Source: Solirubrobacteraceae bacterium
Lineage (GTDB): Bacteria; Actinomycetota; Thermoleophilia; Solirubrobacterales; Solirubrobacteraceae
Direction of reading: 5' to 3'
Assembly: GCA_025928415.1 (NCBI GenBank)
Contig: JAICJK010000028.1
Location: 1-12,272, forward strand
Length of the DNA: 12,272 nucleotides
Shown: in pieces, positions 1-12,164 of the stretch
Position numbering within the stretch: the first letter of the stretch is position 1
How the letters are laid out: each line of letters opens with the position of its first letter
Translations under genes and position numbers: made by a program
The notes under the pieces: generated by a model
The model's database searches: none
Told to the model about the DNA's origin: nothing
The model's input: only the letters and a program-made list of their open reading frames with translations

Positions 1-868
1 GCGCCAGCCGCTCGACGAGCTCGTCGGCGACCGCGTCCGCGACCACCAGCCGCGCGCCGGCGGTGCAGACCTCGCCCTGGTTGCGGAACGTGGCGTTCAT
101 CGCCCCGGCCAGCGCCGCGTCGAGATCGGCGTCGTCGAGGACGATGTTGGCCGACTTGCCGCCGAGCTCCAGCGTCAGGCGCTTCATCGAGTCCGCTGCC
201 GCCCGCTGGATCTCGCGGCCGACCGCGGTCGAGCCGGTGAACGAGATCTTGTCGACCCCCGGATGCCCGACCAGGGCGCGCCCTGTCGTGCCGTCGCCCG
301 TGACCACGTGCCAGACCTCGGGCGGGAAACCCGCCTCCAGCGCCAGCTCGCGCAGGCGTAGCGCGCTCAGCGGGGCGTCCTCGGAGGGCTTGTGGACCAC
401 GGCGTTGCCGCAGGCGAGCGCCGGCGCGAGCTTCCAGGTCGCGATCACCAGCGGGAAGTTCCACGGGGTGATGACGCCCACGACCCCGAGCGGCTCGCGC
501 AGCGTGTAGGTGAACACCCCCGGGTTGGCGGGGTTGGTGGTGCCGAGGATCTTCGACGGCCAGCCGGCGTAGTACAGCCAGGTCTGGGCGGTGAACTTGA
601 CGTCGCGGGCGCGCGCCTCGGCCAGCGGCTTGCCGACGTCGCGGCTCTCGAGCTCCGCGAGCTCGTCGGCATGCCCGTCGATCAGCCGGGCGAGCTCGAT
701 CAGCAGCCGCGTGCGCTGCGTGGGATCCATGCGCGCCCACGCGCGCTGGGCGTCGCGGGCCGCGTCCACGGCCGCGCCGACGTCGGCGGCCCCGTGGACG
801 GGAAGCGTCCCGAGCACCTCGCCGGTCGCCGGATCGACGCTCTGGAAGGTCTGGGCGCTTGCGCTCAC
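1..868 (-). CDS. NAD(P)-dependent aldehyde dehydrogenase, N-terminal 289 residues (3' end outside window)
   Basis: Oxidises an aldehyde to its carboxylic acid with NAD(P)+ in the cytoplasm. Reading leftward from GTG at 868 gives an uninterrupted ALDH-superfamily protein that runs off the window edge. Visible family residues are the oxyanion-hole Asn137 in TPWNFP, the cofactor-binding Lys160 in HKPSE, FTGST, general-base Glu234 in LELGGK and the nucleophile Cys268 in GEVCTAG. The Glu-Cys spacing of 34 is the family's usual one. The specific substrate cannot be read from the sequence; an aryl-acetaldehyde or a ring-cleavage semialdehyde would fit the neighbours. The start is chosen because CATAGT lies 7 bases upstream, the spacing of a leaderless promoter, and no clear Shine-Dalgarno is present. 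GTG at 895 is a possible alternative that adds 9 residues. It is divergent from the aldolase operon, with a 29-base gap holding an operator-like element. Confidence 0.93.
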   Translation of the reverse strand, partial: MSASAQTFQSVDPATGEVLGTLPVHGAADVGAAVDAARDAQRAWARMDPTQRTRLLIELARLIDGHADELAELESRDVGKPLAEARARDVKFTAQTWLYYAGWPSKILGTTNPANPGVFTYTLREPLGVVGVITPWNFPLVIATWKLAPALACGNAVVHKPSEDAPLSALRLRELALEAGFPPEVWHVVTGDGTTGRALVGHPGVDKISFTGSTAVGREIQRAAADSMKRLTLELGGKSANIVLDDADLDAALAGAMNATFRNQGEVCTAGARLVVADAVADELVERLA

Positions 869-875
869 CTGGTCC

Positions 876-881
876 ACTATG
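876..881 (-). promoter_or_regulatory. Putative leaderless -10 hexamer for the aldehyde dehydrogenase
   Basis: On the minus strand the hexamer CATAGT (4 of 6 matches to TATAAT) ends 7 bases before the GTG start codon at 868. That spacing puts transcription start on or next to the start codon, as in leaderless actinobacterial genes, and there is no Shine-Dalgarno. It overlaps the left edge of the operator-like element at 879-899. This is inference from spacing only. Confidence 0.4.
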
Positions 882-899
882 CGAGACTCTGTCACATAT
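879..899. promoter_or_regulatory. Operator-like imperfect palindrome between aldehyde dehydrogenase and aldolase operon (site 1)
   Basis: The 21 bases have 6 of 10 symmetric positions paired, around a core GA-N5-TC. Aligned without gaps to the element at 8024-8044, 15 of 22 bases agree (879-900 against 8024-8045), giving the shared form ATGYGAGAY-N3-GTCNCAYATG. It overlaps the putative -10 of the leftward gene and the ATG (898) of the rightward operon, so a bound protein could block both. The regulator family is not recognisable and no regulator gene is in the window. Confidence 0.5.
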
Positions 900-1587
900 G
901 CTGGGATTTGGCAACCGCCGGCGGGGGCTGTTCCTGAAGCTCGCGTCCACCGAGATCGTCGATCTCACGGCGGCGGCGGGGCTGGACTTCGCGGTCGTCG
1001 ACCTCGAACACTCCCAGCTCTCGGAGGCCGAGGCGCGGGCCCTGATCCGCCACGCCGCGGCGATCGGGTTCCCGGCTCTGGCAAGGATCCCAGACGTCGA
1101 CCGCGGCGCGGTCAACCGGCTGCTCGAGGCGGGCGCGGCGGGCATCCAGCTCTCCACCGTCACCAGCGCCGCCCAGGTCCGCGACCTGCGCGCGGCGATG
1201 CGCTACGCCCCCGACGGCCGCCGCTCGGTGTCGCTCTCCCATCCGCAGGCCGCCTACGGCGCCATCGCGCTGGCCGACTACCTCGGCGCGCAGGCCGCGC
1301 GGCCGGCGCTCCTGGTCGCCCAGATCGAGACCGCGACGACGGAGGACCCGCTCGCGGACATCGCGGCCGCGGGGCCCGACGTCATGTTCCTCGGGATGAC
1401 CGACCTGTCCGTCGACCTCGGGCTCGACGGCGCTCGCGCGCGTGCGCGCGTGGAGGAGGTGGCCGGCGCCGCGGCCGCGGCGGGCATCCCGCTCGGCGCC
1501 TTCGGCCTGGACGACGAGCGGGTCGTCTACGACCTCGTCTCCTCGGACCTGAGCCTGCTGCGCGCGGCGGTGGCCGATGCCGCCTGA
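898..1587 (+). CDS. HpcH/HpaI-family aldolase
   Basis: Predicted divalent-metal-dependent class II aldolase of the HpcH/HpaI (citrate-lyase-like TIM barrel) family. Known members split 4-hydroxy-2-oxo acids to pyruvate and an aldehyde, typically the last step of a meta-cleavage route. The 229-residue protein keeps the expected active-site positions: His38 in DLEHS, Arg63 in ALARIP, the metal ligands Glu144 in QIET and Asp169 in MTDLSVDLG. It is somewhat shorter than E. coli HpaI (about 260), mostly at the N-terminus. The ATG at 898 is chosen because the only upstream in-frame option is a TTG at 859 inside the divergent gene. It is the first gene of a seven-gene operon and overlaps the next gene by 11 bases. 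It has no good Shine-Dalgarno, so it may be translated from a nearly leaderless transcript. The exact substrate is unknown. Confidence 0.9.
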   Translation: MLGFGNRRRGLFLKLASTEIVDLTAAAGLDFAVVDLEHSQLSEAEARALIRHAAAIGFPALARIPDVDRGAVNRLLEAGAAGIQLSTVTSAAQVRDLRAAMRYAPDGRRSVSLSHPQAAYGAIALADYLGAQAARPALLVAQIETATTEDPLADIAAAGPDVMFLGMTDLSVDLGLDGARARARVEEVAGAAAAAGIPLGAFGLDDERVVYDLVSSDLSLLRAAVADAA

Positions 1588-2599
1588 CCTGCGGATCGCG
1601 CTGGGCCCGATCGCGCTGCGCAACCCGCTGATCTGCGGGTCGGGCGAGCACGTGCGGACCCTGGAGGACCTCACCGCGGCGATCGACGCCGGCGCCGCGG
1701 CGGTCGTCGGCAAGTCCGCCAACGAGTCCGACGCGGGCCGCCGGCAGTCCGACGCCATCGCCTGGACGTTCCTCGAGGACGGTCGGCGGGAGGTCCCGAC
1801 CGCGGCGGCGTCGCGGTCGGCCTCGATGCTCAACCGCTCGGGCCTCGTCCAGCAGCCGTGGGATGAGTGGCTGGCCACGCTCGCCGCGGCGGACGCCTAC
1901 GCGAGCGAGCGCGGCGCCTGGGTGGCCGCCAGCCTGATCCCCGCCGACGAGCGCGAGCTGCCGCGCCTGGCCGCCGACGCCGAGCGGGCGGGGCTGCGCT
2001 GGGTCGAGCTCAACCTGTCCGCCCCGCACGCGGGCGAGGCCGCGCCCGGGGCCATCGAGCGGCCGGGCGACCCCGGCCGCGCCGGCCGGCTGACCGCGGC
2101 GGTGCGGGGCGCGGTCTCCGGCGCGCTGACCGTCAAGCTCGCCGCCGAGCACCACGACGTGGTGGCGCTGGCCGCCGCCGTGCGCGAGGCCGGCGCCGAC
2201 GCCGTCGTGCTGGTCGGCCGCCACATGGGCTTCCTGCCCGACCTGGCCACCCGCCGCCCGGTGCTCGGGTCCTTCGGCGGCTACAGCGGCGCCTGGGCGC
2301 TGCCGCTCGCCCTGCGGTGGGTGGCCAAGACGCGCGCCGCGCTCGGCCCCGAGGTGCCGCTGGTCGGCACCAACGGCGCCCGCGACGGCGGCGACGTCGC
2401 GCGCTTCCTGCTGGCCGGCGCGAGCGCCGTGCAGGTCGCCAGCAGCGTGATCGTCGAGGGCTTCGGGGCGCTGACGCGGATGCTGGACGAGCTCTCGGCC
2501 TACCTGGGCGCGCAGGGCGCCGACGCGCGGGAGCTCGTCGGCGCGGCGGCCGACGCCGTGCTGAGCTACGAGGAGGCGGCAGTGAGGAGCAGAGGATGA
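1577..2599 (+). CDS. Dihydroorotate-dehydrogenase-like flavoprotein (FMN TIM barrel) lacking the usual catalytic Cys/Ser
   Basis: Predicted soluble FMN oxidoreductase of the dihydroorotate/dihydropyrimidine dehydrogenase fold, 340 residues. Family features are the opening LGPIALRNPLICGSG, Lys46 in VVGKS, the NLSxPH motif at 146-151, Lys187 in LTVKL, and the C-terminal phosphate-binding segment GTNGARDGGD followed by GASAVQVASSV (264-291). In true dihydroorotate and dihydropyrimidine dehydrogenases the residue after NLS/NVS is a Cys or Ser that acts as base; here it is Ala149. No CxxC iron-sulfur motifs are present. It sits between a catabolic aldolase and a P450, not with pyrimidine genes, so a biosynthetic pyrD role is unlikely. 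A flavin-dependent step on an unsaturated catabolic intermediate is possible. The stop overlaps the P450 start as ATGA. Family call is good; function is open. Confidence 0.82.
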   Translation: MPPDLRIALGPIALRNPLICGSGEHVRTLEDLTAAIDAGAAAVVGKSANESDAGRRQSDAIAWTFLEDGRREVPTAAASRSASMLNRSGLVQQPWDEWLATLAAADAYASERGAWVAASLIPADERELPRLAADAERAGLRWVELNLSAPHAGEAAPGAIERPGDPGRAGRLTAAVRGAVSGALTVKLAAEHHDVVALAAAVREAGADAVVLVGRHMGFLPDLATRRPVLGSFGGYSGAWALPLALRWVAKTRAALGPEVPLVGTNGARDGGDVARFLLAGASAVQVASSVIVEGFGALTRMLDELSAYLGAQGADARELVGAAADAVLSYEEAAVRSRG

Positions 2600-3786
2600 G
2601 CGAGGCGGTGGGAGTCGGCGGGTCGGTGACGCTCGAGGAGCTCGAGCGCGACCCGTACCCGATCTACGCGCGGCTGCGCGACGAGGAGCCGGTGTCGTGG
2701 GTGGAGTCCGTGGGGCTGTGGCTGGTCACGCGCTGGGACGACGTGCAGACCGTCGACAAGGACTCGGCGGCGTTCACCGGCGAGACCGAGCCGTCGACGC
2801 TCAACCGCACGTTCGGCAAGAACCTGCTGGGCTCCGAGGGCGCCTACCACGACCGCGTCAAGGCGATCATCCACCCGTGGTTCCGCACCGGCGCGATCGG
2901 CCACTTCCCCGGCGAGGTCATCGGGCCGCTCGTGCGCGAGCTGATCGCCGGGTTCTCCGAGCGCGGCGAGGTCGACCTCGTCGCGCAGCTCGCCGAGCCG
3001 CTGTCGGTGCGCGTCCTGCGCCGGGCCACCGGGCTGGAGGAGGTCGACGACGACACGCTGCGGCGCTGGTTCGCCGGCCTGGCGGAGGGCGCGGCGAACT
3101 TCGAGGGCGACCCGGCCAAGCAGGAGCTCGCCGACGCCACCAGCCGGGACGTCGACGAGCGCACGGCGCCGATCCTCGACCGCCTGGCCCGGGAGCCCGA
3201 CGACACCCTGCTGTCGAGCATGATCCACACGCGCGTCGACGGGGAGGGCCTGTCGCGCGCCGAGATCCAGGCCAACCTGAAGGTGATGATCGTCGGCGGG
3301 CTGCAGGCCGTCTCCGACGCCATCGCGATCACCGTCTGGGCGCTGCTGTCGCACCCCGAGCAGGCCGCGCTGGTCCGCGCCGACCCGGAGCTCGCCGCGC
3401 CGGCCGTCGAGGAGGCGCTGCGCTGGCACTCCCCGGTCGGGACGTCGACGCGCCAGACGACCGCCGAGACCGAGCTGGCGGGCGTCGCCCTGCCCGCGGG
3501 CGCGCTGATCGCGGCCGTGCTCGCGTCCGCCAACCGCGACCCGCGCCACTGGGACCGCCCCGACGCCTACGTCCTCGACCGCCCGCGGCGCCCGCACCTC
3601 GCCTTCGCCGCCGGCCCCCACGTGTGCGTCGGGAGCCTGCTCGCGCGCTTCGAGGCCCGCACGGCGCTGCAGGAGCTGCTGGGCGCGCTGGGAGGCCTGC
3701 GGCTCGACCCCGCGCGGCCGCCGGTCTTCACGGGCTGGGAGTTCCGCTCGCCGCAGCACCTGCACCTGCTCTTCGACCCCGCCTGA
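2596..3786 (+). CDS. Cytochrome P450 with an unusual I-helix
   Basis: Heme-thiolate monooxygenase, soluble bacterial type, 396 residues. The ExxR motif is Glu273-Ala-Leu-Arg276. The heme loop FAAGPHVCVG (337-346) matches FxxGxHxCxG, with Cys344 as the axial ligand. The I-helix segment reads IVGGLQAVSD (232-241); the usual (A/G)Gx(D/E)T acid-alcohol pair used for O2 activation is replaced by Gln and Ala. The start at 2596 is supported by AGGAG a few bases upstream and a 4-base overlap with the preceding gene. No ferredoxin or ferredoxin reductase is encoded in the window, so electrons must come from elsewhere. Immediately upstream of ring-cleavage dioxygenase subunits, a role in hydroxylating or O-demethylating an aromatic acid to a catechol is likely, but this is inferred from context. 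The CYP family cannot be assigned by eye. Confidence 0.93.
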   Translation: MSEAVGVGGSVTLEELERDPYPIYARLRDEEPVSWVESVGLWLVTRWDDVQTVDKDSAAFTGETEPSTLNRTFGKNLLGSEGAYHDRVKAIIHPWFRTGAIGHFPGEVIGPLVRELIAGFSERGEVDLVAQLAEPLSVRVLRRATGLEEVDDDTLRRWFAGLAEGAANFEGDPAKQELADATSRDVDERTAPILDRLAREPDDTLLSSMIHTRVDGEGLSRAEIQANLKVMIVGGLQAVSDAIAITVWALLSHPEQAALVRADPELAAPAVEEALRWHSPVGTSTRQTTAETELAGVALPAGALIAAVLASANRDPRHWDRPDAYVLDRPRRPHLAFAAGPHVCVGSLLARFEARTALQELLGALGGLRLDPARPPVFTGWEFRSPQHLHLLFDPA

Positions 3787-3796
3787 TCGGAGGACC

Positions 3797-4156
3797 ATGA
3801 CCAGCAGCACCGATGAGCTGACCGCCGACTACCTGCAGCGCCTGGCCGCCGTGCAGCCCAGCGACCTGCCCGCGGACCTCGACCTGTTCTCCGAGGACAC
3901 CGCGACCCGGGGCATCCGCCTCAACAAGGCGGCCTACTCGCTCAAGCACGCCGAGCAGCGCGAGCTGTTCGCCGCCGACGAGGAGCGCTGGATGGAGCAG
4001 TTCGGTTTGACCGGCGAGGAGCGGGACCTGCTGCGCCGCCGCGACTGGATCGGGCTGTGGCGCGGCGGGATGACGATCTACGTGATGGTGAAGCTCTCGG
4101 GCGTGACGGGCACGCCGCTGCCCGAGATCGGCAAGCAGATGAGGGAGGCGGGCTGA
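3797..4156 (+). CDS. LigA-like small (alpha) subunit of a type II extradiol ring-cleavage dioxygenase
   Basis: A 119-residue all-helical protein resembling the alpha subunit of protocatechuate 4,5-dioxygenase. The N-terminal part (RGIRLNKAAYSLKHAEQR, about 38-55) and the C-terminal LigA core (GLTGEERDLLRRRDWIGL, then GGMTIYVMVKLSGV) both follow the family pattern. In characterised LigAB enzymes the alpha subunit covers the active site of the beta subunit and contributes to substrate binding, but carries no metal. It is slightly shorter than LigA of Sphingobium (139). GGAGG at 3789-3793 precedes the ATG. Its stop overlaps the start of the catalytic subunit gene (TGATG), which fits coupled translation of a 1:1 complex. 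Confidence 0.88.
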   Translation: MTSSTDELTADYLQRLAAVQPSDLPADLDLFSEDTATRGIRLNKAAYSLKHAEQRELFAADEERWMEQFGLTGEERDLLRRRDWIGLWRGGMTIYVMVKLSGVTGTPLPEIGKQMREAG

Positions 4157-5007
4157 TGGCCAGGGTGATCGGAGGGATCGGCGCGTCGCACGCGCCGTCC
4201 ATGGAGCACGTGTACGACGCCGGCGACGACGTCCGCCGCAACGACGAGTGGGAGCCGCTGTTCGGGCCGTTCTCGGAGGTCTCGTCGTGGCTGGCCGAGC
4301 TGCGCCCCGACCGGCTGGTCGTCATCTACAACGACCACATGGACGAGTTCTTCCTGAACGCCTACCCGACGTTCGCGCTGGGGGTGGCCGACAGCTACCC
4401 GGTCGCCGACGAGGGCTTCGGCGCCCGGCCGTTCCCGCCGCTGCCGGGCGACGCCGCGCTCGGCTGGCACATCGCCCGGTCGCTGGTGGCCGACGAGTTC
4501 GACCCGACGATCTGCCAGGAGCTCGAGGTCGACCACGGCGTGCTGTCGCCGCTGCCGATGGTCGACTTCGCCGAGGGCGAGGGCGCGTGGCGGATCCCGA
4601 TCGTCCCGCTCGCGGTCAACGTGATCCTGCACCCGCTGCCCACGCCGCGCCGCTGCTGGAAGCTCGGCCAGGCCGTCCGCCGCGCGATCCTGTCCTACCC
4701 CGAGGACCTCGGCGTGGTGGTCGTGGGCACCGGCGGGCTGTCGCACCAGCTCACCGGCCCGCGCTTCGGCGCGGTGACGCCGGAGTGGGACCAGGAGTTC
4801 ATGCGCCTGCTGGCCGAGGACCCCGAGCGCCTGTGCGACTACACGCACGAGGACCTCATCAAGCTCGGCGGCACCGAGTCGGTCGAGGTCGTCAACTGGC
4901 TGGCGATGCGCGGCGCGCTGGGCCCCGAGGCGACCGCGAAGGTCACTGCGTACTACCCGCACAAGATCATGGGCTACGGCCTGCAGTCCTACGCGGTGGC
5001 GGCATGA
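4156..5007 (+). CDS. LigB-like catalytic (beta) subunit of a type II extradiol ring-cleavage dioxygenase
   Basis: Non-heme Fe(II) enzyme predicted to open a catechol-type aromatic ring, 283 residues. It keeps the residues known from Sphingobium LigB at the same or nearly the same numbers: His12 in GASHAPS and His61 in YNDHMDEFF as iron ligands, His197 in GTGGLSHQL as the catalytic acid/base (LigB His195), and Glu244 in the segment GTESVEVVNW as the third ligand (LigB Glu242). Only a small two-residue shift separates the numbering. The family also includes gallate, 3-O-methylgallate, 2-aminophenol and DOPA-type dioxygenases, so the ring substrate is not fixed by the motifs. GGGAGG upstream lies inside the alpha-subunit gene. 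The stop overlaps the next ATG as ATGA. Confidence 0.92.
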   Translation: MARVIGGIGASHAPSMEHVYDAGDDVRRNDEWEPLFGPFSEVSSWLAELRPDRLVVIYNDHMDEFFLNAYPTFALGVADSYPVADEGFGARPFPPLPGDAALGWHIARSLVADEFDPTICQELEVDHGVLSPLPMVDFAEGEGAWRIPIVPLAVNVILHPLPTPRRCWKLGQAVRRAILSYPEDLGVVVVGTGGLSHQLTGPRFGAVTPEWDQEFMRLLAEDPERLCDYTHEDLIKLGGTESVEVVNWLAMRGALGPEATAKVTAYYPHKIMGYGLQSYAVAA

Positions 5008-5903
5008 GCGCCGACCGGGTGGCCGCGCTGCTGGAGGGCGCGGTGGACCTGCACGTCCACCCCGCGCCGTCGCCGCTGCCGCGGCGCATGGACGGCGCGG
5101 AGGCCGCGCGCCTGGCCGGCGAGTCGGGCTTCAGCGCGGTCGTCGTGAAGTCCCATCACCACTCGACCGTGATGGACGTGCTGGCCCTCGAGCAGGCCGG
5201 GGTCGATCACGGCTCGGCCGAGCTCTTCGGCGGGATCGCGCTCAACGGCCCCGTCGGCGGCATCAACCCGAAGGCGGTCGACCTCGCCCTGAAGATGGGC
5301 GGCAGGATCGTGTGGTTCCCGACCATCGGGTCGGCGCAGCACATCCGCCATCACGCCGAGCACCCGAACCTGAAGTTCCCCAAGCTCGCCGTCCACCTCG
5401 AGCCGGAGGAGCCGATCGAGGTCCTCGACGGCAACGGCGGCGTGACCGAGGACGTGTACGCGATCCTCGAGTCGATCAAGGCCCACGACGCGATCCTGGC
5501 CAGCGGCCACATGGCGCCTCACCAGATCACCGCCGTCTTCCAGGCGGCGCGCGAGGTGGGGGTGCAGCGGATGCTCGTCAACCACCCCAACTTCGTCATC
5601 GAGGCGTCCCACGAGGACGCCAGGCGCTGGGTGGAGCTCGGGGCCTACGTCGAGCACTCGCTGTGCATGTACGACGAGGAGTCCTCGTTCCACAACTGGG
5701 ACCTCGACACGATGGTCGCCTGGATCGAGGCCGTCGGCCCCGAGCGGTCGACGCTCGGCTCCGATCTCGGCCAGATGAACAACCCGCTGCCCACCGACTC
5801 GTTCCGGAAGATCGTCGGGCGCCTGCTCGAGCGCGGCACGTCCGAGGACACCGTGCGCCGGATGGTGGCGACCAACCCGGCCGAGCTGCTGGGCGTCGCC
5901 TGA
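5004..5903 (+). CDS. DUF6282-like metal-dependent hydrolase (amidohydrolase superfamily)
   Basis: A 299-residue protein with a metal-dependent TIM-barrel signature: HxH (His17, His19) in DLHVHP on strand 1, a His-rich segment KSHHHST (49-55), His169 in SGHM, His194 in NHPNF and Asp254 in LGSDLGQ. I associate this arrangement with the poorly characterised DUF6282 family. Characterised superfamily relatives in aromatic degradation include LigI (2-pyrone-4,6-dicarboxylate hydrolase), LigJ and ACMSD-type decarboxylases. A hydrolysis, hydration or decarboxylation step after ring opening by the adjacent LigAB pair is therefore plausible but unproven. It overlaps the dioxygenase stop codon by four bases and has no independent Shine-Dalgarno, so it is probably translationally coupled. 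Family recognition is from memory of motifs. Confidence 0.8.
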   Translation: MSADRVAALLEGAVDLHVHPAPSPLPRRMDGAEAARLAGESGFSAVVVKSHHHSTVMDVLALEQAGVDHGSAELFGGIALNGPVGGINPKAVDLALKMGGRIVWFPTIGSAQHIRHHAEHPNLKFPKLAVHLEPEEPIEVLDGNGGVTEDVYAILESIKAHDAILASGHMAPHQITAVFQAAREVGVQRMLVNHPNFVIEASHEDARRWVELGAYVEHSLCMYDEESSFHNWDLDTMVAWIEAVGPERSTLGSDLGQMNNPLPTDSFRKIVGRLLERGTSEDTVRRMVATNPAELLGVA

Positions 5904-5909
5904 GCGCCG

Positions 5910-6506
5910 ATGGCCGGGGCGACCGGAGGTGACCGGCCGGACGTCGCCCCGCAGGCACCACCGGCCTCGGCGCTGGAGCGCGAGGCCGAGGCGTGGGTGG
6001 CGGACTACGTCAACGTCCGCCACCTGCTGCGCACGCGCGACTGGCTGGTCGCGCTTGCGCCGGAGGCCGGGGAGGCGCTCCGCGTCGCGGCGCTCACCCA
6101 CGACATCGAGCGCCGGGTCCCCGGCGGCCCGCGGCTGGACGCCCGCCGCGCGGGCGGGCAGGACGCGGCCTACCTGCACGAGCACGCGCGCCGCTCGGCG
6201 CGGATCGTCGACGCCTGGCTGGGCGAGCGGGGCGCGGGCCGGGAGCTCCGCGCGAGCGTCTTCGAGCTGATCCTGCGCCACGAGATCGGCGGCACGCCGG
6301 CCGCCGACCTGGTGCAGGCCGCCGACTCGCTGTCGTTCCTGGAGGTCAACGCGGGCCGCGCCCGCGCCTGGGTCGACGAGGGGCGCTGCGACCTCGCCGA
6401 GGCGCAGGCCAAGCTGGACTGGATGCGCGACCGCATCGCGGTCCCCGCCGCCGCCGCGGCCGCGGCCGGGCTGCACGCCGTGGCGCTCGTGGCGCTCGCG
6501 GCGTGA
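5910..6506 (+). CDS. Small HD-domain-like protein of unknown function
   Basis: A 198-residue helical protein with the layout of an HD-superfamily metal phosphohydrolase: His38 in VRHLL, the His64-Asp65 doublet in LTHDIE, further His at 90 and 92, His124 in LRHEIGG and Asp139 in QAADSLSFLE. The C-terminus is Ala-rich. It starts 6 bases after the hydrolase stop, so it ends the operon. No Shine-Dalgarno precedes the ATG, and a somewhat later start is possible because the first 20 residues are low-complexity. Why an HD protein belongs with an aromatic catabolic operon is unclear. Nucleotide or phosphoester hydrolysis is the general activity of the fold, but the substrate here is unknown. Confidence 0.72.
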   Translation: MAGATGGDRPDVAPQAPPASALEREAEAWVADYVNVRHLLRTRDWLVALAPEAGEALRVAALTHDIERRVPGGPRLDARRAGGQDAAYLHEHARRSARIVDAWLGERGAGRELRASVFELILRHEIGGTPAADLVQAADSLSFLEVNAGRARAWVDEGRCDLAEAQAKLDWMRDRIAVPAAAAAAAGLHAVALVALAA

Positions 6507-6526
6507 GCCCCGCCTCGTCCGGATCG

Positions 6527-7969
6527 CTAGCCCACCAGCGCCGGCTCGGCCACCGGCTCGCTGGCCGCCTCCGCCTCGGCGACCCGGCCGCGCGTGGCGA
6601 ACCGGAGCACGATGCCGATCGCGATCCAGGCCAGCATGAAGTACGGCGCGTACTTGAACGGGGCGACCTGGTCGACGAACTCCGACCACTCGGCCAGCAC
6701 GACCACGACGAGCGCCAGGGCCGGCGCGATCAGGAGGTCGATCACCGAGCCCCCGTGCCGGCGGGAGTGCAGCGCGCCGCCGATCGCCACGAGCGCGTAG
6801 ACGGGCAGGATGCCCGTCGCCCCGGCCTGCAGCAGCCAGGAGAAGAAGGTCAGGCCGCCGTTGAGCCCGCTGCCCTGCCAGATCAGGCCGCCGACGAACA
6901 CGGCGGCGACGAACACCGCCAGCGCGGCGATCGCCACGTACGGGCTCTTGTAGCGCGGCTGCGTGTTGCCGAAGGCCCGCGGCAGGTAGCCGTCGTGCCC
7001 CCAGGAGAACGCCACGCGGGTGGTGAAGTTCGCCGTCCCCAGCGCCGAGGCGACCGCCGAGATCGCGAGCAGCAGCAGGATGATCTTGCCGAAGGTGAGC
7101 GAGACGTACTGGGCCGAGAGCCCGACGACGGCGCCGCCCGAGTCGGTCGGCCACTGCTTGCCGACCGCGTCGAGGCCGTAGCCGGTCACGATCGAGAAGG
7201 TCACGAACAGGAAGAAGACGATCGCCAGCAGCACGGCGCCGACGACGGCCTTGGGCACCTGCCGGCGCGGCGTCTGGGCCTCCTCGGCGAGGAACACCGC
7301 GGTCTCGAACCCGGAGAACCCGGTCATCGCGATGCCCACCGCCAGCGCGATGTCGTGGAAGCTGTTGCCCTTGGGCCCGAACGAGCTCCACGCGAGCCCG
7401 TGGGCGCCGCCCTTGGCGAGGATCAGGATGCCGAACAGGGTCAGCATGCTCACGCCGATCGCGGTCAGCGTCAGCAGCACCCGGGCGGAGATCTGCACGC
7501 CGAAGTACGAGCAGCCGAGCACGAACACCGCGCCGCAGACCGCCCAGAAGATCCAGTTGGAGTGCAGGAACGTGGCGTCGGGCGTCACGAGGCCGAAGAA
7601 GTTCTGGAACAGGAACCCGGAGGCCACCAGCAGCGCCGGCACGAACACCACGCCGACCGCCAGGACCACCCACCCGGCGAGGAACCCGGCGTCCCGCCCG
7701 AGCCCGGCGCGCACGATCGCGTAGGTGCCGCCGGCGTGCGGGACGAAGCGCGCGAAGCGCCCGTAGATGAGCGCCAGGCCGAGCGCGCCGACGCCGGCGA
7801 TCAGGAAGACGAACGGCGTGGCGCCGGCGACCTTGGCCGCCACGACGCTGGCGATGACGACCGCCGAGATCTCCGGGGCCGTCACCCCGAGGGACTGCGC
7901 CACCAGTCCGCCGAGGCCCACCGCATTGCGGCGCAGCCCACGCTCGGGCACTTCAACGCGCTCTTGCAT
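6527..7969 (-). CDS. APC-family amino-acid/amine permease
   Basis: Integral membrane transporter of the amino acid-polyamine-organocation superfamily, 480 residues with about 12 hydrophobic segments. Family marks are the N-terminal GLGGLVAQSLGVTAPEIS region, the helix-2/3 stretch ending FVPHAGGTYAIVRAGLG, and the TM6 signature GFSGFETAVFLAEEAQTPRRQVPKA (quoted in parts: GFSGFETAVF, then EEAQTPRRQVPKA). It is predicted to import an amino acid or related amine by cation symport or exchange; the substrate is not readable. Start ATG at 7969 has a strong GGAGG-type ribosome binding site (complement of 7974-7983). It diverges from the PLP decarboxylase across 93 bases and converges on the HD gene with only 20 bases between stops. 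The pairing with an amino-acid-acting PLP enzyme suggests both handle the same amino acid. Confidence 0.93.
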   Translation of the reverse strand: MQERVEVPERGLRRNAVGLGGLVAQSLGVTAPEISAVVIASVVAAKVAGATPFVFLIAGVGALGLALIYGRFARFVPHAGGTYAIVRAGLGRDAGFLAGWVVLAVGVVFVPALLVASGFLFQNFFGLVTPDATFLHSNWIFWAVCGAVFVLGCSYFGVQISARVLLTLTAIGVSMLTLFGILILAKGGAHGLAWSSFGPKGNSFHDIALAVGIAMTGFSGFETAVFLAEEAQTPRRQVPKAVVGAVLLAIVFFLFVTFSIVTGYGLDAVGKQWPTDSGGAVVGLSAQYVSLTFGKIILLLLAISAVASALGTANFTTRVAFSWGHDGYLPRAFGNTQPRYKSPYVAIAALAVFVAAVFVGGLIWQGSGLNGGLTFFSWLLQAGATGILPVYALVAIGGALHSRRHGGSVIDLLIAPALALVVVVLAEWSEFVDQVAPFKYAPYFMLAWIAIGIVLRFATRGRVAEAEAASEPVAEPALVG

Positions 7970-8023
7970 CGAACCCCTCCTCCGGTATCCGCCCGGGCCC
8001 AGCGCGCGGGACGCTGACTCGGG

Positions 8024-8044
8024 ATGTGAGATAACGTCCCACAT
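8024..8044. promoter_or_regulatory. Operator-like imperfect palindrome between permease and PLP decarboxylase (site 2)
   Basis: ATGTG-A-GA-N5-TC-C-CACAT: 7 of 10 symmetric positions pair, including 5-base outer arms ATGTG/CACAT. It matches the element at 879-899 in 15 of 22 aligned bases with identical GA-N5-TC spacing. It lies in the -35/spacer region of the rightward promoter (TATAGC at 8050-8055) and over the expected -10 region of the leftward promoter (TTGACA at 8061-8056). A bound regulator would therefore affect both genes. The regulator identity is unknown. Confidence 0.6.
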
Positions 8045-8049
8045 GCAGA

Positions 8050-8055
8050 TATAGC
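8050..8055 (+). promoter_or_regulatory. Putative leaderless -10 hexamer for the PLP decarboxylase
   Basis: TATAGC ends 7 bases before the ATG at 8063, and no Shine-Dalgarno is present. This is the geometry of a leaderless actinobacterial transcript. The site-2 palindrome is directly upstream, where -35 contacts would be. Confidence 0.5.
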
Positions 8056-8061
8056 TGTCAA
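8056..8061 (-). promoter_or_regulatory. Putative -35 box for the permease
   Basis: On the minus strand the bases are a perfect TTGACA. The -10 partner is weak: the best option, CGTTAT (8036-8031), is 19 bases downstream. Transcription from here would give the permease a leader of roughly 50-60 bases containing its strong ribosome binding site. The box touches the start region of the divergent decarboxylase. Confidence 0.35.
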
Positions 8062-8062
8062 G

Positions 8063-9505
8063 ATGGCGACCACCGTGCCCGGCGACCCACCAGAACCGCT
8101 GCTGTCCCTGGACGACCGCGAGCTGCGGCGGCTCGGCTATCGCGTCGTGGACCTGATCGCCGACCACTGGGCGGGGGTGGGCGAGCGGCCGCCGATCACG
8201 GTCGGCGAGCCCGCCGCGCTCGCCGGACGGCTGGCCGAGGAGCCGCCCGAGCACCCCACCCCCGTCGACGACGTGCTCGCCCTCCTGATCGCGGACGTCC
8301 TGCCCTACGTCCAGCACGGCGACCATCCGCGCTTCTACGCGCGCATCCCGGGGCCGAGCAACCCCGTCGGGGTGCTCGCGGACGCGCTGGCCTCGGGGCT
8401 GAACGTGTTCGTCGGGTCGTGGACCGGCGGCTCGGGGCCGGCCACGGTCGAGCTCGTCACGCTCGACTGGATGCGCCGGATCTGCGGGCTGCCGGAGGGC
8501 AGCGAGGGCGCCTTCGTCAGCGGCGGCTCGGTCGCGACGCTCAACGCGCTGGCCGCGGCGCGGGCCTCGCGCCTGGGCGGCCACGACCCCGAGGCCGTCG
8601 TGTACCTGTCCGACCAGGCGCACGCCGCGGTCGCGCGCGCGCTGCGGGTCCTCGGGTTCGCCGACGACCAGGTCCGCACGCTTCCCTCCGACGCCGACCT
8701 GCGCCTGCCGGCCGACGCCACGGCGCGGGCGGTCGCCGAGGACCGCGGCGCGGGCAGGCGCCCGTTCTGCGTCGTGGCCACCGCCGGGTCGACCAACACC
8801 GGCGCCGTCGACCCGCTCGAGGCGCTGGCGGACCTCTGCGCCGCCGAGGGGATGTGGCTGCACGCCGACGCCGCCTACGGCGGGCCGGCGGTCCTGTCGG
8901 AGACCGGCCGGCGCGCCCTGGCCGGCCTCGACCGCGTCGACTCGCTGGCGATCGACCCGCACAAGTGGCTGTTCCAGCCCTACGAGTGCGGGTGCCTGCT
9001 CGTCCGCCACCCGGGCGCGCTGGCCCAGGCCTTCGCGCTGCACCCCGAGTACCTGGCCGACGTGTCCGGCGGCCACGAGGAGGTCAACTTCTTCGACCGC
9101 GGCGTGCAGCTCACCCGCGGCTTCCGCGCGCTGAAGCTGTGGATGACGATCAAGGTCTTCGGGCTGGACGAGCTGCGCCGGGCCGTCGAGCACGGGCTCG
9201 CGCTGGCCGAGCACGCCGAGCGGACGCTGCGGGCGGCCGGCTGGGGCATCGTCACCCCGGCGCAGCTCGGGATCGTGAGCTTCGCGCGCGAGCCGCCGGG
9301 CGCGCCGGCCGCCGAGCTCGACCGCCTGCACCTGCGCACCGTCGCCGAGATGCAGCGCGAGGGCACGGCGGCAATCAGCTCGACGGTGCTGCGCGGCCGC
9401 ACCGTGTTGCGCATGTGCACGATCAACCCCCGCGGCAGCACCGCGGACGTCGAGCGCACGATCGCGGCGCTCGACCGCGCGTGGGCGGCGGCGCAGGCGG
9501 GGTGA
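8063..9505 (+). CDS. PLP-dependent group II aromatic-amino-acid decarboxylase homologue; possible aldehyde synthase
   Basis: Fold type I PLP enzyme of the DOPA/tryptophan decarboxylase family, 480 residues. The PLP Schiff-base lysine is Lys301 in DPHKWLFQPYECG. Asp269 in LHADAAYGG contacts the pyridine nitrogen. His187 in SDQAHAAV is the ring-stacking His. In animal and plant decarboxylases a Tyr in the mobile loop (human Tyr332 in TDYRHW) protonates the quinonoid; the aligned position here is Phe343 or Phe344 in EEVNFFDRGVQL. Plant enzymes with Phe in that place are aldehyde synthases that turn the amino acid into the aryl-acetaldehyde with release of CO2, NH3 and H2O2. That activity is an inference here, since the loop is one residue shorter and related bacterial sequences may share the Phe. 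Start ATG at 8063 has no Shine-Dalgarno and fits a leaderless transcript. It is divergent from the amino-acid permease. Confidence 0.92.
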   Translation: MATTVPGDPPEPLLSLDDRELRRLGYRVVDLIADHWAGVGERPPITVGEPAALAGRLAEEPPEHPTPVDDVLALLIADVLPYVQHGDHPRFYARIPGPSNPVGVLADALASGLNVFVGSWTGGSGPATVELVTLDWMRRICGLPEGSEGAFVSGGSVATLNALAAARASRLGGHDPEAVVYLSDQAHAAVARALRVLGFADDQVRTLPSDADLRLPADATARAVAEDRGAGRRPFCVVATAGSTNTGAVDPLEALADLCAAEGMWLHADAAYGGPAVLSETGRRALAGLDRVDSLAIDPHKWLFQPYECGCLLVRHPGALAQAFALHPEYLADVSGGHEEVNFFDRGVQLTRGFRALKLWMTIKVFGLDELRRAVEHGLALAEHAERTLRAAGWGIVTPAQLGIVSFAREPPGAPAAELDRLHLRTVAEMQREGTAAISSTVLRGRTVLRMCTINPRGSTADVERTIAALDRAWAAAQAG

Positions 9506-10169: not shown

Positions 10170-11582
10170 TCAGTGCTTCTTGGCCGCCTTCTTGTGGGCC
10201 GCCTTCTTCTTGCTCGTCGCCTTCTTCTTGTCCCAGCCGCGCGGCGGCACCTTGTGGATCACGCGCTCGCAGCCGTGCAGCACGTCGGAGCGATCCGCGT
10301 AGACGGTGTCGCGGCCCGAGCCGCAGTTCACCACGTCCCTGCTGTGGTGGCGGACGTCGATGACGTCCGCGCCCGAGCCGGCGGAGATCACGTTGCGGCC
10401 CGAGCCGCCGTCGATGCGGTCGTTCCCGGCGCCGCCGTAGAGGCGATCGCGGCCGCTGCCGCCGTACAGGCGGTCGTTGCCGCTGCCGCCGGACAGGCGG
10501 TCGTTGCCCGCGCCGCCGTTGAGGTAGTCGTTGCCGACGCTCCCGTACAGCTTGTCGCCGGCGTTGTTGCCGTAGAGCTGGTCGTTGCCGCGCTGGCCGT
10601 AGAGCCGGTCGTTCGACCCGCCGCCGGACAGCAGGTCGGCGCCGTCGCCGCCGAGCAGGTCGTCCCGCCCGGGGCCGCCGTAGAGGCAGTCGTCGCCGAG
10701 GCCGCCGGCCAGGTAGTCGTTGCCGGCCAGGCCGAACTCGCGGTCGCCGGCCTTGCTGCCGTCGATCCGGTCGTTGCGGGGCGTGCCGATGAACGTCACC
10801 TTGCAGGCGCCGGGCTTGATCGTCGCGCCGGGCGCGGCCGAGTTCACCGAGATCGGCGCCGGCGTCCCGAGGGGGGACGGCGCGATCGGCGCGATGGCCG
10901 GCGGGGCGGGGACGTTCCCGCCGCCGGACGGCGGCGCCGGCGGCGCCGGCGGGACCGGCGCGGCCGGGGCGCCGGTGCCGGTGACGTGCTCGCAGCCGGC
11001 CGCGTCGAAGCGGTCGAGGCGGTCGATCACCACGGTGTCGTCGCCGGCGCCGCAGGACGTCACGGTGTCGCGCTCGGCCAGGCCGAGGCCGCCGTCGACG
11101 TCGATGACGTCGTCGCCGCCGCCCCCGGTGATCGTGTCCTCGCCGGCGTCGCCGAAGACGTGGTCGGCTCCCTCGCCGCCGGCGATCGTGTCGTTGCCAG
11201 CGTCGCCGTGCAGCAGCGCGGCGAGCGCGGTGGCGTTGACGATGTGGTCGTCGCCGGTCCCCCCGATGACCCGCAGGTTGGTGATGCCCGCCGCCGGGCA
11301 TGCCGCCTGGTGGACGACCCCGTCGGCCTCCGGCGCGGCCGCCACGCACTTGTTGCCCGAGCCGACGGTCACGCCCGACGGGCCGGCGTCGCGCACGACC
11401 AGGGCCCCGCCCTTCAGCGAGATCGTCACGTCGATCGCCTGGCTCGCGGGCGTCGCCTGGTAGTTGAGGCGCGCGACCGACGAGCTGACGGACACGGTGC
11501 CGGCCAGCGCGGGCGGGGCGGCGACCGAGGCGGCGAGCAGCGCCGCTCCGGCGGCGGTCAACAGGGTGCTTCTGCGGGGCAT
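10170..11582 (-). CDS. Secreted RTX-type calcium-binding repeat protein with two Cys-capped modules and Lys-rich C-terminus
   Basis: A 470-residue exported protein. Residues 1-27 form a Sec signal peptide (MPRRS, hydrophobic core, cleavage near APPALA|G). A beta-rich N-terminal region follows, then a short RTX block (about 106-163, GGTGDD, GDAGND, GGEGAD, GDAGED, GGGGDD). A Cys cap (RDTVTSCGAG to GCEHV, 171-200), a Pro-rich linker (205-243) and a longer block of about a dozen GGxGxDxL nonapeptides (270-408) come next. A second Cys cap (RDVVNCGSG to GCERV, 415-441) precedes a tail of Lys/Ala/His repeats (451-470). RTX nonapeptides bind Ca2+ in a parallel beta-roll. There is no enzymatic domain, so it may be structural or adhesive. 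The start at 11582 has a purine-rich AGGAAGGA ribosome binding site and gives a clean signal peptide; an upstream in-frame start at 11687 would not. Confidence 0.88.
   Translation of the reverse strand: MPRRSTLLTAAGAALLAASVAAPPALAGTVSVSSSVARLNYQATPASQAIDVTISLKGGALVVRDAGPSGVTVGSGNKCVAAAPEADGVVHQAACPAAGITNLRVIGGTGDDHIVNATALAALLHGDAGNDTIAGGEGADHVFGDAGEDTITGGGGDDVIDVDGGLGLAERDTVTSCGAGDDTVVIDRLDRFDAAGCEHVTGTGAPAAPVPPAPPAPPSGGGNVPAPPAIAPIAPSPLGTPAPISVNSAAPGATIKPGACKVTFIGTPRNDRIDGSKAGDREFGLAGNDYLAGGLGDDCLYGGPGRDDLLGGDGADLLSGGGSNDRLYGQRGNDQLYGNNAGDKLYGSVGNDYLNGGAGNDRLSGGSGNDRLYGGSGRDRLYGGAGNDRIDGGSGRNVISAGSGADVIDVRHHSRDVVNCGSGRDTVYADRSDVLHGCERVIHKVPPRGWDKKKATSKKKAAHKKAAKKH
10359..10775 (-). repeat. 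DNA encoding the main RTX nonapeptide array
   Basis: Period of 27 bases, seen on the plus strand as recurring GTCGTTGCCGGCGCCGCCG-like units, translating to about 15 successive GGxGxDxL(Y/S) nonapeptides (residues 270-408). Units near the middle (GGSGNDRLYGG, GGSGRDRLYGG, GGAGNDRIDGG) are most alike, which suggests recent internal duplication. The units at the start (GSKAGDREF, GLAGNDYLA) are more diverged. Confidence 0.8.
11094..11267 (-). repeat. DNA encoding the first, shorter RTX block
   Basis: Encodes residues 106-163 of the same protein, with about five GGxGxD-type units, one interrupted by an inserted segment (VNATALAALLH). It is separated from the main array by a Cys cap and a Pro-rich linker. 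Confidence 0.7.
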
Positions 11583-11640
11583 CTGTTCCTTCCTGGACCC
11601 GTCGAGGGGCTCGACCGGGTCACACGACGAGGGGGGTCGG

Positions 11641-11661
11641 CGGTTCGGAACTCGCGAACCG
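11641..11661. promoter_or_regulatory. Inverted repeat upstream of the RTX gene
   Basis: CGGTTCG and CGAACCG form 7-base arms around a 7-base centre. It lies 59-79 bases upstream of the RTX start codon and downstream of the VOC gene stop. It could be an operator, a hairpin in the RTX leader or a terminator for the VOC gene; the sequence does not decide. Confidence 0.35.
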
Positions 11662-11687
11662 GCTCGGCGTTGCGCTCGGGGCGGCAA

Positions 11688-11750: not shown

Positions 11751-12164
11751 TCAGGCCGGCCAGGCCTCGCCCTCGATGAGCTCGACGGAGTTCCCGGCCG
11801 GGTCGCGGACGTAGAGCGAGCGCCCGCCCTGGCCCCAGGTGATCTCCCGTTCGACCTCGATGCCGGCGGCCTGCAGGCGCACGGCGAACGCCGCCAGCCC
11901 GCCGGCGCCGACCGAGAACGCGATGTGCCCGGCCCCGCGCGCGCCGTGCGCAGGGACGTAGCGGCCGGGCTCCGAGGCGCGCTCGGGGTCGAAGATCAGC
12001 AGGACGCCGCCGTCGTCCAGCCGGAAGACGGCGCCCAGCCCCTCGGAGGCCTCCAGCGCGCGCAGGCCGAGCGGCCCCGCGTAGAACCGGGCGGTCGCCT
12101 CCACGTCGCGGGCGTACAGGACCGTCTCGTACACGCCCAGCACGGCGGCCTCGGGATGCGTCAT
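11751..12164 (-). CDS. VOC-superfamily (glyoxalase/dioxygenase fold) protein
   Basis: A 137-residue protein with two beta-alpha-beta3 modules typical of vicinal-oxygen-chelate enzymes. The N-terminal module begins VYETVLYARDVEATARFY and continues LGLRAL and GGVLLIFDP; the C-terminal module holds GHIAFSV and RDPAGNSVELIE. Probable metal ligands are Glu13, His80 and Glu128. Position 13 is more often His in this fold, so a metal site with Glu or no metal is possible. Family members include glyoxalase I, fosfomycin-resistance enzymes and type I extradiol dioxygenases; at this length a glyoxalase-like or unknown role is most likely. A TAGCGT hexamer 9 bases upstream of the ATG suggests a nearly leaderless transcript. 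It is divergent from the DUF5996-like gene. Confidence 0.85.
   Translation of the reverse strand: MTHPEAAVLGVYETVLYARDVEATARFYAGPLGLRALEASEGLGAVFRLDDGGVLLIFDPERASEPGRYVPAHGARGAGHIAFSVGAGGLAAFAVRLQAAGIEVEREITWGQGGRSLYVRDPAGNSVELIEGEAWPA

Follow-up and report, generated by a model that had tools for sequence, protein, structure and literature searches.

A candidate gene island, probably under IclR control, for the breakdown of an aromatic amino acid or arylethylamine in a draft genome of the Solirubrobacteraceae

The homoprotocatechuate (Hpa) pathway is encoded by the gene set HpaBC, HpaD, HpaE, HpaF, HpaG, HpaH and HpaI, and the 4-cresol (Cre) pathway uses a cytochrome P450. Two-part kinases of aromatic pathways are represented by HpeHI, CreHI and phenylphosphate synthase (PMC9618137, excerpt). 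Here we analyse a 12,272-nucleotide stretch of DNA from Solirubrobacteraceae bacterium (contig JAICJK010000028.1, hereafter the window), which is contig C176 of a draft genome, G000 (3.25 Mb, 669 contigs, 87.5% complete), and in which genes for a P450, a two-subunit LigAB-type extradiol dioxygenase, a DUF6282 protein and an HpaI-type aldolase lie together. Sequence comparison indicates that the locus is a real, conserved catabolic unit, probably co-regulated, and its general role appears fairly secure. Our reading of the whole, a catabolic island under IclR control that would serve the use of an aromatic amino acid or arylethylamine, has in our estimate a probability of about 0.5. Gene content, synteny, the operator-like site common to the loci and the active-site residues kept or lost are read from the sequence itself; every reaction, the substrate and the phosphorylated intermediate are what we infer from the genes. 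As far as searched, this combination of known-pathway parts is undescribed: no description of the gene set was found in the open-licence literature (subscription papers and preprints being outside that scope).

In the proposed route, an amino acid-polyamine-organocation (APC) permease would import the aromatic amino acid or arylethylamine, a pyridoxal phosphate (PLP) enzyme would form the amine by decarboxylation of the amino acid, a class III aminotransferase (AT) encoded off the window would turn the amine into an arylacetaldehyde, and an aldehyde dehydrogenase (ALDH) would oxidise this to the arylacetate. The P450, perhaps aided by a two-part phosphotransferase and a phosphohydrolase (the HD protein, or a histidine phosphatase in relatives), would make the ring a catechol, and LigAB would open it. 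A cupin, a dihydroorotate dehydrogenase (DHOD)-like protein, the DUF6282 protein and the HpaI-type aldolase would then break the ring-opened compound down to pyruvate and a second small fragment, an aldehyde or oxo-acid. Pfam and NCBIfam profile searches of the window proteins, by which gene families were assigned, agree with the families named in the initial annotation (permease, ALDH, P450, LigA/LigB, DUF6282, HD, DHOD-like, HpcH/HpaI aldolase and PLP gene). The features are as follows.

2..895, minus strand: ALDH, first 298 residues, truncated by the window start (PF00171, 2.9e-108)
879..900, plus strand: operator-like site between ALDH and HpaI, which helped build the consensus; one of two sites in the genome
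898..1587, plus strand: HpcH/HpaI-type aldolase (PF03328, 7.6e-19)
1577..2599, plus strand: DHOD-like flavoprotein (PF01180, 7.6e-20)
2596..3786, plus strand: cytochrome P450, CYP255A-like (GcoA group), I-helix GGLQAVSD, heme Cys344 (PF00067, 9.6e-22)
3797..4156, plus strand: LigA-type small subunit of a class III extradiol dioxygenase (PF07746, 1.9e-18)
4156..5007, plus strand: LigB-type catalytic subunit (PF02900, 3.6e-60)
5004..5903, plus strand: DUF6282 protein, predicted amidohydrolase-superfamily metal enzyme (PF19799, 1.2e-68)
5910..6506, plus strand: HD-domain protein, possible phosphohydrolase (PF01966, 26.3 bits, cut-off 22)
6527..7969, minus strand: APC-family amino acid/amine permease (PF13520, 3.1e-29)
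8024..8045, plus strand: palindromic operator-like site between the permease and decarboxylase genes, 22 bases identical in six f7 loci
8063..9505, plus strand: group II PLP decarboxylase, aromatic type (PF00282, 1.2e-63)

The seven plus-strand genes from HpaI to HD (HpaI, DHOD-like, P450, LigA, LigB, DUF6282, HD) are separated by gaps of only -11 to +10 bases. The truncated ALDH has its continuation on another contig of the same genome, C627, which ends with the last 178 residues of an ALDH; 7 bases in frame are common to both contig ends, and the two fragments side by side make a whole ALDH, as in the related loci L114 and L074. The C627-C176 junction is thus well supported by the matching ends and the completeness of the ALDH. 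Past the ALDH, C627 continues with genes for AT, the IclR regulator, the cupin and two proteins of the PPDK_N and phosphoenolpyruvate (PEP)-utilizer families (the two-part phosphotransferase), and from AT to PEP-utilizer each gene overlaps the next by 4 to 14 bases. Lying off the window, these genes had no place in the scheme of the initial annotation. Since the ALDH runs on into the C627 operon, two divergent operons begin at the ALDH|HpaI promoter, and the window holds about half of the gene set.

In a class sample of 399 genomes, the P450 search listed 37 places, eight of which are module loci, spread over seven genomes: the window, G409, G443, G375 (two loci), G444, G438 and G386, the last carrying the family label f11 and the five before it the label f7 (six loci). 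The P450 shows at least 61% identity in these eight places, and the HpaI, DHOD-like and LigA genes lie alongside it in all of them. LigB is on the P450's contig in six of the eight; the contigs of G443 and G444:C254 stop inside or just past LigA, and in G444 LigB and DUF6282 are on a different contig. A related permease adjoins HpaI in every f7 locus (6/6), with 61-66% identity in five and 79% in the sixth, there over a short end fragment. AT adjoins ALDH in the five loci whose contig extends there (the window via C627, G409, G375:C6, G438 and G386), and IclR and the cupin come next after AT in 4/4 loci. All module genomes are incomplete drafts, 68-88% complete.

For controls, we turned to the remaining P450 places (29) and DUF6282 matches (54; G181 and G037 not counted) and opened 11 of the former and 20 of the latter. 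One P450 place, L075, is an unfair control, being a stretch of the G386 contig that starts right after the module, which leaves ten. Homologues of LigA, LigB, HpaI, DHOD, PPDK_N and PEP-utilizer occur in none of these ten P450-paralogue neighbourhoods and in none of the 20 DUF6282-paralogue neighbourhoods. Other partners do recur: AT and cupin relatives in 2/20 DUF6282 places, PLP decarboxylases in 5/11 and permeases in 4/11 P450 places. The neighbourhood comparison of the P450-LigA-LigB-DUF6282 set that had been proposed for this locus shows a core adjacency beyond chance (8 loci versus 0 in controls). Outside the module, LigB relatives of 45-48% identity were found in three other genomes (four places) of a 396-genome phylum sample, with no other core gene alongside bar one weak LigA. 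Plasmid searches gave no close cluster, all LigB, P450, DUF6282 and PEP-utilizer matches being below 60% identity; the records opened were 5 of 47 with DUF6282 and 3 of 173 with LigB.

Further genes lie in several module flanks. Directly after the module in G386 (L074 12469-19833) lie an HpaD-like VOC dioxygenase, an HpaB-like hydroxylase under its cut-off, an acetoacetate-decarboxylase-family protein, an ALDH and one more P450. G409 has, downstream of its module (L114 12027-15006), two proteins resembling styrene monooxygenase, of which one carries a fused flavin reductase domain, and in G375 (L071 11430-12059) an O-methyltransferase gene (Methyltransf_3) follows the decarboxylase.

An operator-like element links the window's two divergent promoters. 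The site at 8024-8045 is identical over 22 bases in the six f7 loci, where it lies between HpaI and the permease, and the element is a palindrome, TGTGRGA-N5-TCYCACA. Its consensus was built from the f7 sites, the window permease-promoter site, the G386 site and the window ALDH|HpaI site. At up to 3 mismatches, it matches its own 3.25 Mb genome just twice, once at each of these promoters; that both match perfectly follows from how the consensus was made, which does not hold for the lack of further genome sites. Searched against the six other module genomes, the consensus matches seven promoters of the module plus a single place elsewhere, the latter at 3 mismatches. All seven genomes have, at their module promoters, the same site (window permease, six f7) or a related one (ALDH|HpaI of the window and G386). 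The common site ties the permease and the decarboxylase to the LigAB operon. Presumably the operon's IclR protein binds it, and the site would offer a simple handle for finding the inducer. Together with the synteny and the permease beside HpaI in f7, it upholds the proposal of a coherent catabolic unit.

The PLP enzyme had been taken for an aldehyde synthase. In plants, synthases of the AAS type are marked by a Phe in place of the catalytic-loop Tyr of decarboxylases. In the window enzyme this residue is Tyr330, which aligns with Tyr335 of 4obu, Tyr348 of 6eew and Phe338 of 6eei, with a Tyr also in 7xin and 6liu; 6eei is a phenylacetaldehyde synthase, although its PDB title is tyrosine decarboxylase 1, and we take Lys301 to be the PLP lysine. 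The closest solved structure is 4obu (2.6e-93), followed by DOPA, Tyr and Trp decarboxylases. Family (Pyridoxal_deC), loop Tyr and closest structures all fit a group II aromatic amino acid decarboxylase, and we dropped the aldehyde-synthase step as Tyr330 is kept. An amine is then the expected product, and formation of the arylacetaldehyde probably falls to the class III aminotransferase, whose solved relatives include amine and polyamine transaminases. The initial annotation had also made its pathway depend on conservation of both the permease and the PLP gene with the LigAB operon. The permease half holds in the six f7 loci (G386 having a distant relative only); the PLP half does not, as no ortholog of this gene occurs in the other genomes. 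A different group II decarboxylase (31-33% identity) stands after the cupin in G409 and G375:C6.

The best solved relatives of the P450 are 8u09 (6e-73), 9ia1 (4e-63) and GcoA (2e-62). We surveyed its motifs in 125 sequences: that of the window, four from module loci and the 120 best among 2092 database matches. Phe75 and Phe395 of GcoA are kept in all of them, and position 169 is Ala, again in 125/125. The I-helix reads GG[LMI]QA throughout, the Gln being kept and the following Glu of GcoA replaced by Ala, while the 11 P450 paralogues all have GGMQEPGH. Ala is the majority residue of CYP255A at GcoA position 169, and in GcoA it also admits syringol (PMC6628648, excerpt); as the majority residue it is little informative, and we dropped it as a sign of a syringyl substrate. 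Among the relatives, P0155 and P0175 are natural P450-LigA fusions of 522 and 527 residues. CYP255A-like GGMQEPGH paralogues adjoin PLP decarboxylases in L077, L081, L082, L083 and L084, and four of these five loci (not L083) also lie near an HpaD-like VOC dioxygenase and an ALDH, a second recurring aromatic set.

For the ring-opening enzyme, LigB scores over the cut-off of the class III extradiol subfamily PRK13365 (349.8 versus 299 bits), and its closest PDB relatives are DesB (1.1e-74) and LigAB (4.5e-70). In DesB, the residues that hold gallate are the carboxylate contacts Thr13, Thr267, Tyr391 and Tyr412, plus Glu377, and LigAB has Phe at the Glu377-equivalent position of LigA (PMC3962378, excerpt). 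The window has Ala, Met, Val, Leu and Gly for Thr13, Thr267, Glu377, Asn387 and Tyr391 of DesB, so that its LigA carries Val at the position where that of LigAB has Phe; Thr13 was read directly against DesB, the other positions being transferred via an Acidovorax protein annotated as gallate dioxygenase. The stretch due to hold Tyr412 is absent from the window, Tyr412 itself not being placed exactly as the spacing pattern is off by one residue. These replacements make a substrate with a carboxylate directly on the ring less likely. The profile scores fall short of both described activities: LigB alone gives 306.7 bits against a cut-off of 412 for PRK13367 (gallate dioxygenase), and LigA 37.4 against 108.6 for TIGR02792 (protocatechuate 4,5-dioxygenase).

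Members of the amidohydrolase superfamily are TIM barrels with an HxH motif, two more His and an Asp. The AlphaFold2 model of the DUF6282 protein (mean predicted local distance difference test, pLDDT, 95.3) matches an amidohydrolase-like TIM barrel in fold searches, and H17xH19, K49, H169, H194 and D254 are invariant in 31 sequences; by this residue and fold rule the protein is a predicted member of the superfamily. We do not call it a dipeptidase, dihydroorotase or phosphotriesterase, as the top fold matches are tied and function cannot be read from a common fold; neither LigI nor LigJ appears in the titles of the best 50 fold matches per search, which excludes nothing. No paper on DUF6282 turned up in the open-licence literature searched. 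Leaving aside the module and the distant paralogues, we opened 13 intact DUF6282 loci; 11 of them have an HpaI-type gene no more than 10 kb away (L002-L007, L086, L087, L172-L174; not L175 and L177; plasmid loci by annotation), a proximity which suggests that DUF6282 makes the aldolase's substrate. Two of these loci, L086 (8751-10444) and L087 (1974-10514), from two other genomes of the order, pair a DUF6282 (about 50% identity) with an aldolase of HpaI type and IclR, and have no LigAB. A distant DUF6282 paralogue group of the same order (L088-L106, about 30-37% identity) has no HpaI alongside, nor has L107, a broken 52% DUF6282 fragment counted among the 20 controls.

The aldolase itself is far from the TIGR02311 HpaI equivalog (69.5 bits against a cut-off of 368.8), and its assignment is to the wider HpcH/HpaI family. 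DHOD and dihydropyrimidine dehydrogenase (DPD) carry a Cys where the motif of the DHOD-like protein, N-x-x-A-P-H, has Ala, in all six aligned sequences (five module, one Chloroflexota). The HD protein matches DUF4202 below the cut-off and, folded without an alignment, gives a pLDDT of 54, so that we make no claim on its fold. Its slot directly after DUF6282 is taken by a histidine phosphatase in three f7 loci (G438, G444 and, as a fragment, G409), and no HD homologue follows DUF6282 in three other loci with a visible flank (L074, L123, L124). The flank past DUF6282 is cut in G409 and G375:C6.

The best pointer to the substrate comes from a Chloroflexota locus, L004, with LigA, LigB, DUF6282 (frameshifted in the record), HpaI, a DHOD-like gene, cupin (62%) and IclR (56%). 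It has no P450 match and, instead, HpaB and a flavin reductase, the HpaB scoring 574.3 bits, over the 480.2-bit cut-off of TIGR02309 (4-hydroxyphenylacetate 3-monooxygenase). This points to a 4-hydroxyphenylacetate-type substrate and fits a catechol derived from an arylacetate. Over the 16.5 kb of this locus (one contig side unread), neither a phosphotransferase nor a phosphatase was seen; PPDK_N genes are present elsewhere in the genome.

The phosphate step would fall to the pair on C627, where PPDK_N and PEP-utilizer are separate subunits, the layout of a two-part kinase. The pair is found in four loci, after the cupin in G000 and G386 and after DUF6282 and the histidine phosphatase in G444 and G438. 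PPDK_N matches at E <= 1e-30 occur in 67 genomes of the class sample, those of 58-64% identity only in G386, G444, G438, G375 and G443 (partial matches in three of these five), with 47% as the next highest value. By analogy with HpeHI and its like, an aryl phosphate intermediate is plausible. Alternatively, and in a way compatible with any other reading, the pair may serve pyruvate/PEP metabolism: its NCBIfam matches are generic (PEP synthase, rifamycin phosphotransferase, the unnamed PRK08296), none over cut-off, and pyruvate is the expected end product. Yet the split into two proteins resembles HpeHI (PMC9618137, excerpt), in four of five visible loci the gene right after DUF6282 encodes a phosphatase or an HD protein, the close PPDK_N group is limited to module genomes and the P450-less L004 lacks such a pair in the stretch read; for this step alone we give the metabolic role a little less than even odds.

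A number of observations weigh against the main reading, a route for an aromatic amino acid or arylethylamine. The anchor for 4-hydroxyphenylacetate, L004, is a single genome, and the closest solved P450s are O-demethylases, so that a methoxy-aromatic substrate is possible. Conservation of the uptake and amine-forming end is uneven: outside the window, relatives of the PLP gene are found in two of the three other loci where this is visible, at 31-33% identity; G386 has no PLP decarboxylase within 20 kb and a permease relative of only 29% identity; and in G409 and G375:C6 the decarboxylase after the cupin stands in place of the phosphotransferase. G409 has no close PPDK_N at E <= 1e-30, and G386 no phosphatase or HD gene beside DUF6282. 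The core is not uniform either, as no LigB was found in G443 (an incomplete draft whose P450 contig ends at LigA), LigB occurs in 0/215 high-quality genomes of the class sample, and seven genomes of the same genus are without DUF6282.

An APC permease with a PLP decarboxylase is a common acid-resistance pairing, and the two genes might be a unit of their own, for acid resistance or amine export, that happens to lie beside the operon, as the lack of orthology of the PLP gene between genomes would allow. Their common promoter bears the operator-like site, found elsewhere in the genome only at ALDH|HpaI at up to 3 mismatches, and a related permease adjoins HpaI and ALDH in f7, which makes such a pair quite improbable. 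A better case can be made for lignin-type methoxy-aromatic catabolism, in which the P450 would be a true O-demethylase of a guaiacyl or syringyl compound, and AT, ALDH and the decarboxylase would have a side chain, or something different, as their substrate. The relatedness to 8u09, 9ia1 and GcoA, the kept Phe75 and Phe395 and the Ala at 169 (PMC6628648, excerpt) agree with it, but the Glu after the I-helix Gln, present in every paralogue, is Ala in the whole window group, the Chloroflexota version uses a phenol hydroxylase and AT lies inside the operon wherever it can be seen (5/5); we hold it to be unlikely. Very improbable, in our view, is 4,5-cleavage of protocatechuate or gallate in a pathway whose accessory genes are unusual. 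Gallate and protocatechuate dioxygenases are indeed the closest solved relatives of LigB, but the gallate-holding residues of DesB are replaced (PMC3962378, excerpt), the scores lie under the gallate and fused protocatechuate dioxygenase cut-offs, and LigC, LigI, LigJ and LigK are not named among the operon genes, no search having been aimed at them.

The catabolic island may be carried further, to a scheme that we consider doubtful. In this aerobic pathway, a phenol derived from an aromatic amine would be phosphorylated by the two-part kinase, oxidised by a CYP255A-like P450 devoid of the usual O2-activation residues, dephosphorylated and opened by a LigAB of new specificity, and DUF6282 would be a new hydratase or lactonase of the ring-fission product that feeds HpaI, the pair being reused elsewhere for other polycarboxylates. 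The island as a whole would give DUF6282 a function, link CYP255A-type P450s, phenol kinases and LigAB, usually studied apart, in one regulon, and explain part of the aromatic amine use by uncultured, probably actinobacterial organisms. The window also encodes an RTX calcium-binding repeat protein (10170-11687) and a glyoxalase-family protein (11751-12164), neither of which we see as a module member.

Compared with described systems, the P450 is nearest to the CYP255A O-demethylases GcoA, AgcA and SyoA (grouping after PMC13101465, excerpt), its best solved relatives, with which it shares two of three pocket Phe and the I-helix Gln. It differs from them by the Ala after this Gln (125/125), by the fusion of some relatives to LigA and by the lack of a reductase among the operon genes, the rest of the genome not having been searched for one. 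With DesB, GalA and LigAB, the dioxygenase has in common the LigA/LigB architecture and, in the alignment, the active-site His residues of DesB, whereas the gallate-holding residues are replaced and the partner genes differ. The Cre (4-cresol) and Hpe (acetovanillone) systems, with CreHI and HpeHI, likewise place a two-part phosphotransferase and a phosphatase in an aromatic operon (PMC9618137, excerpt); the subunits here are smaller (272 and 524 aa against 40.6 and 71.2 kDa in that excerpt), no carboxylase is seen, and the ring would be opened by LigAB. Finally, the probable arylacetate catechol, extradiol cleavage, HpaI-type aldolase and ALDH, and the HpaB of the Chloroflexota version, recall the Hpa homoprotocatechuate pathway, but here a two-subunit LigAB stands for HpaD, a P450 for HpaBC, and DUF6282, DHOD-like and cupin genes for HpaE to HpaH, with an aldolase far under the HpaI cut-off.

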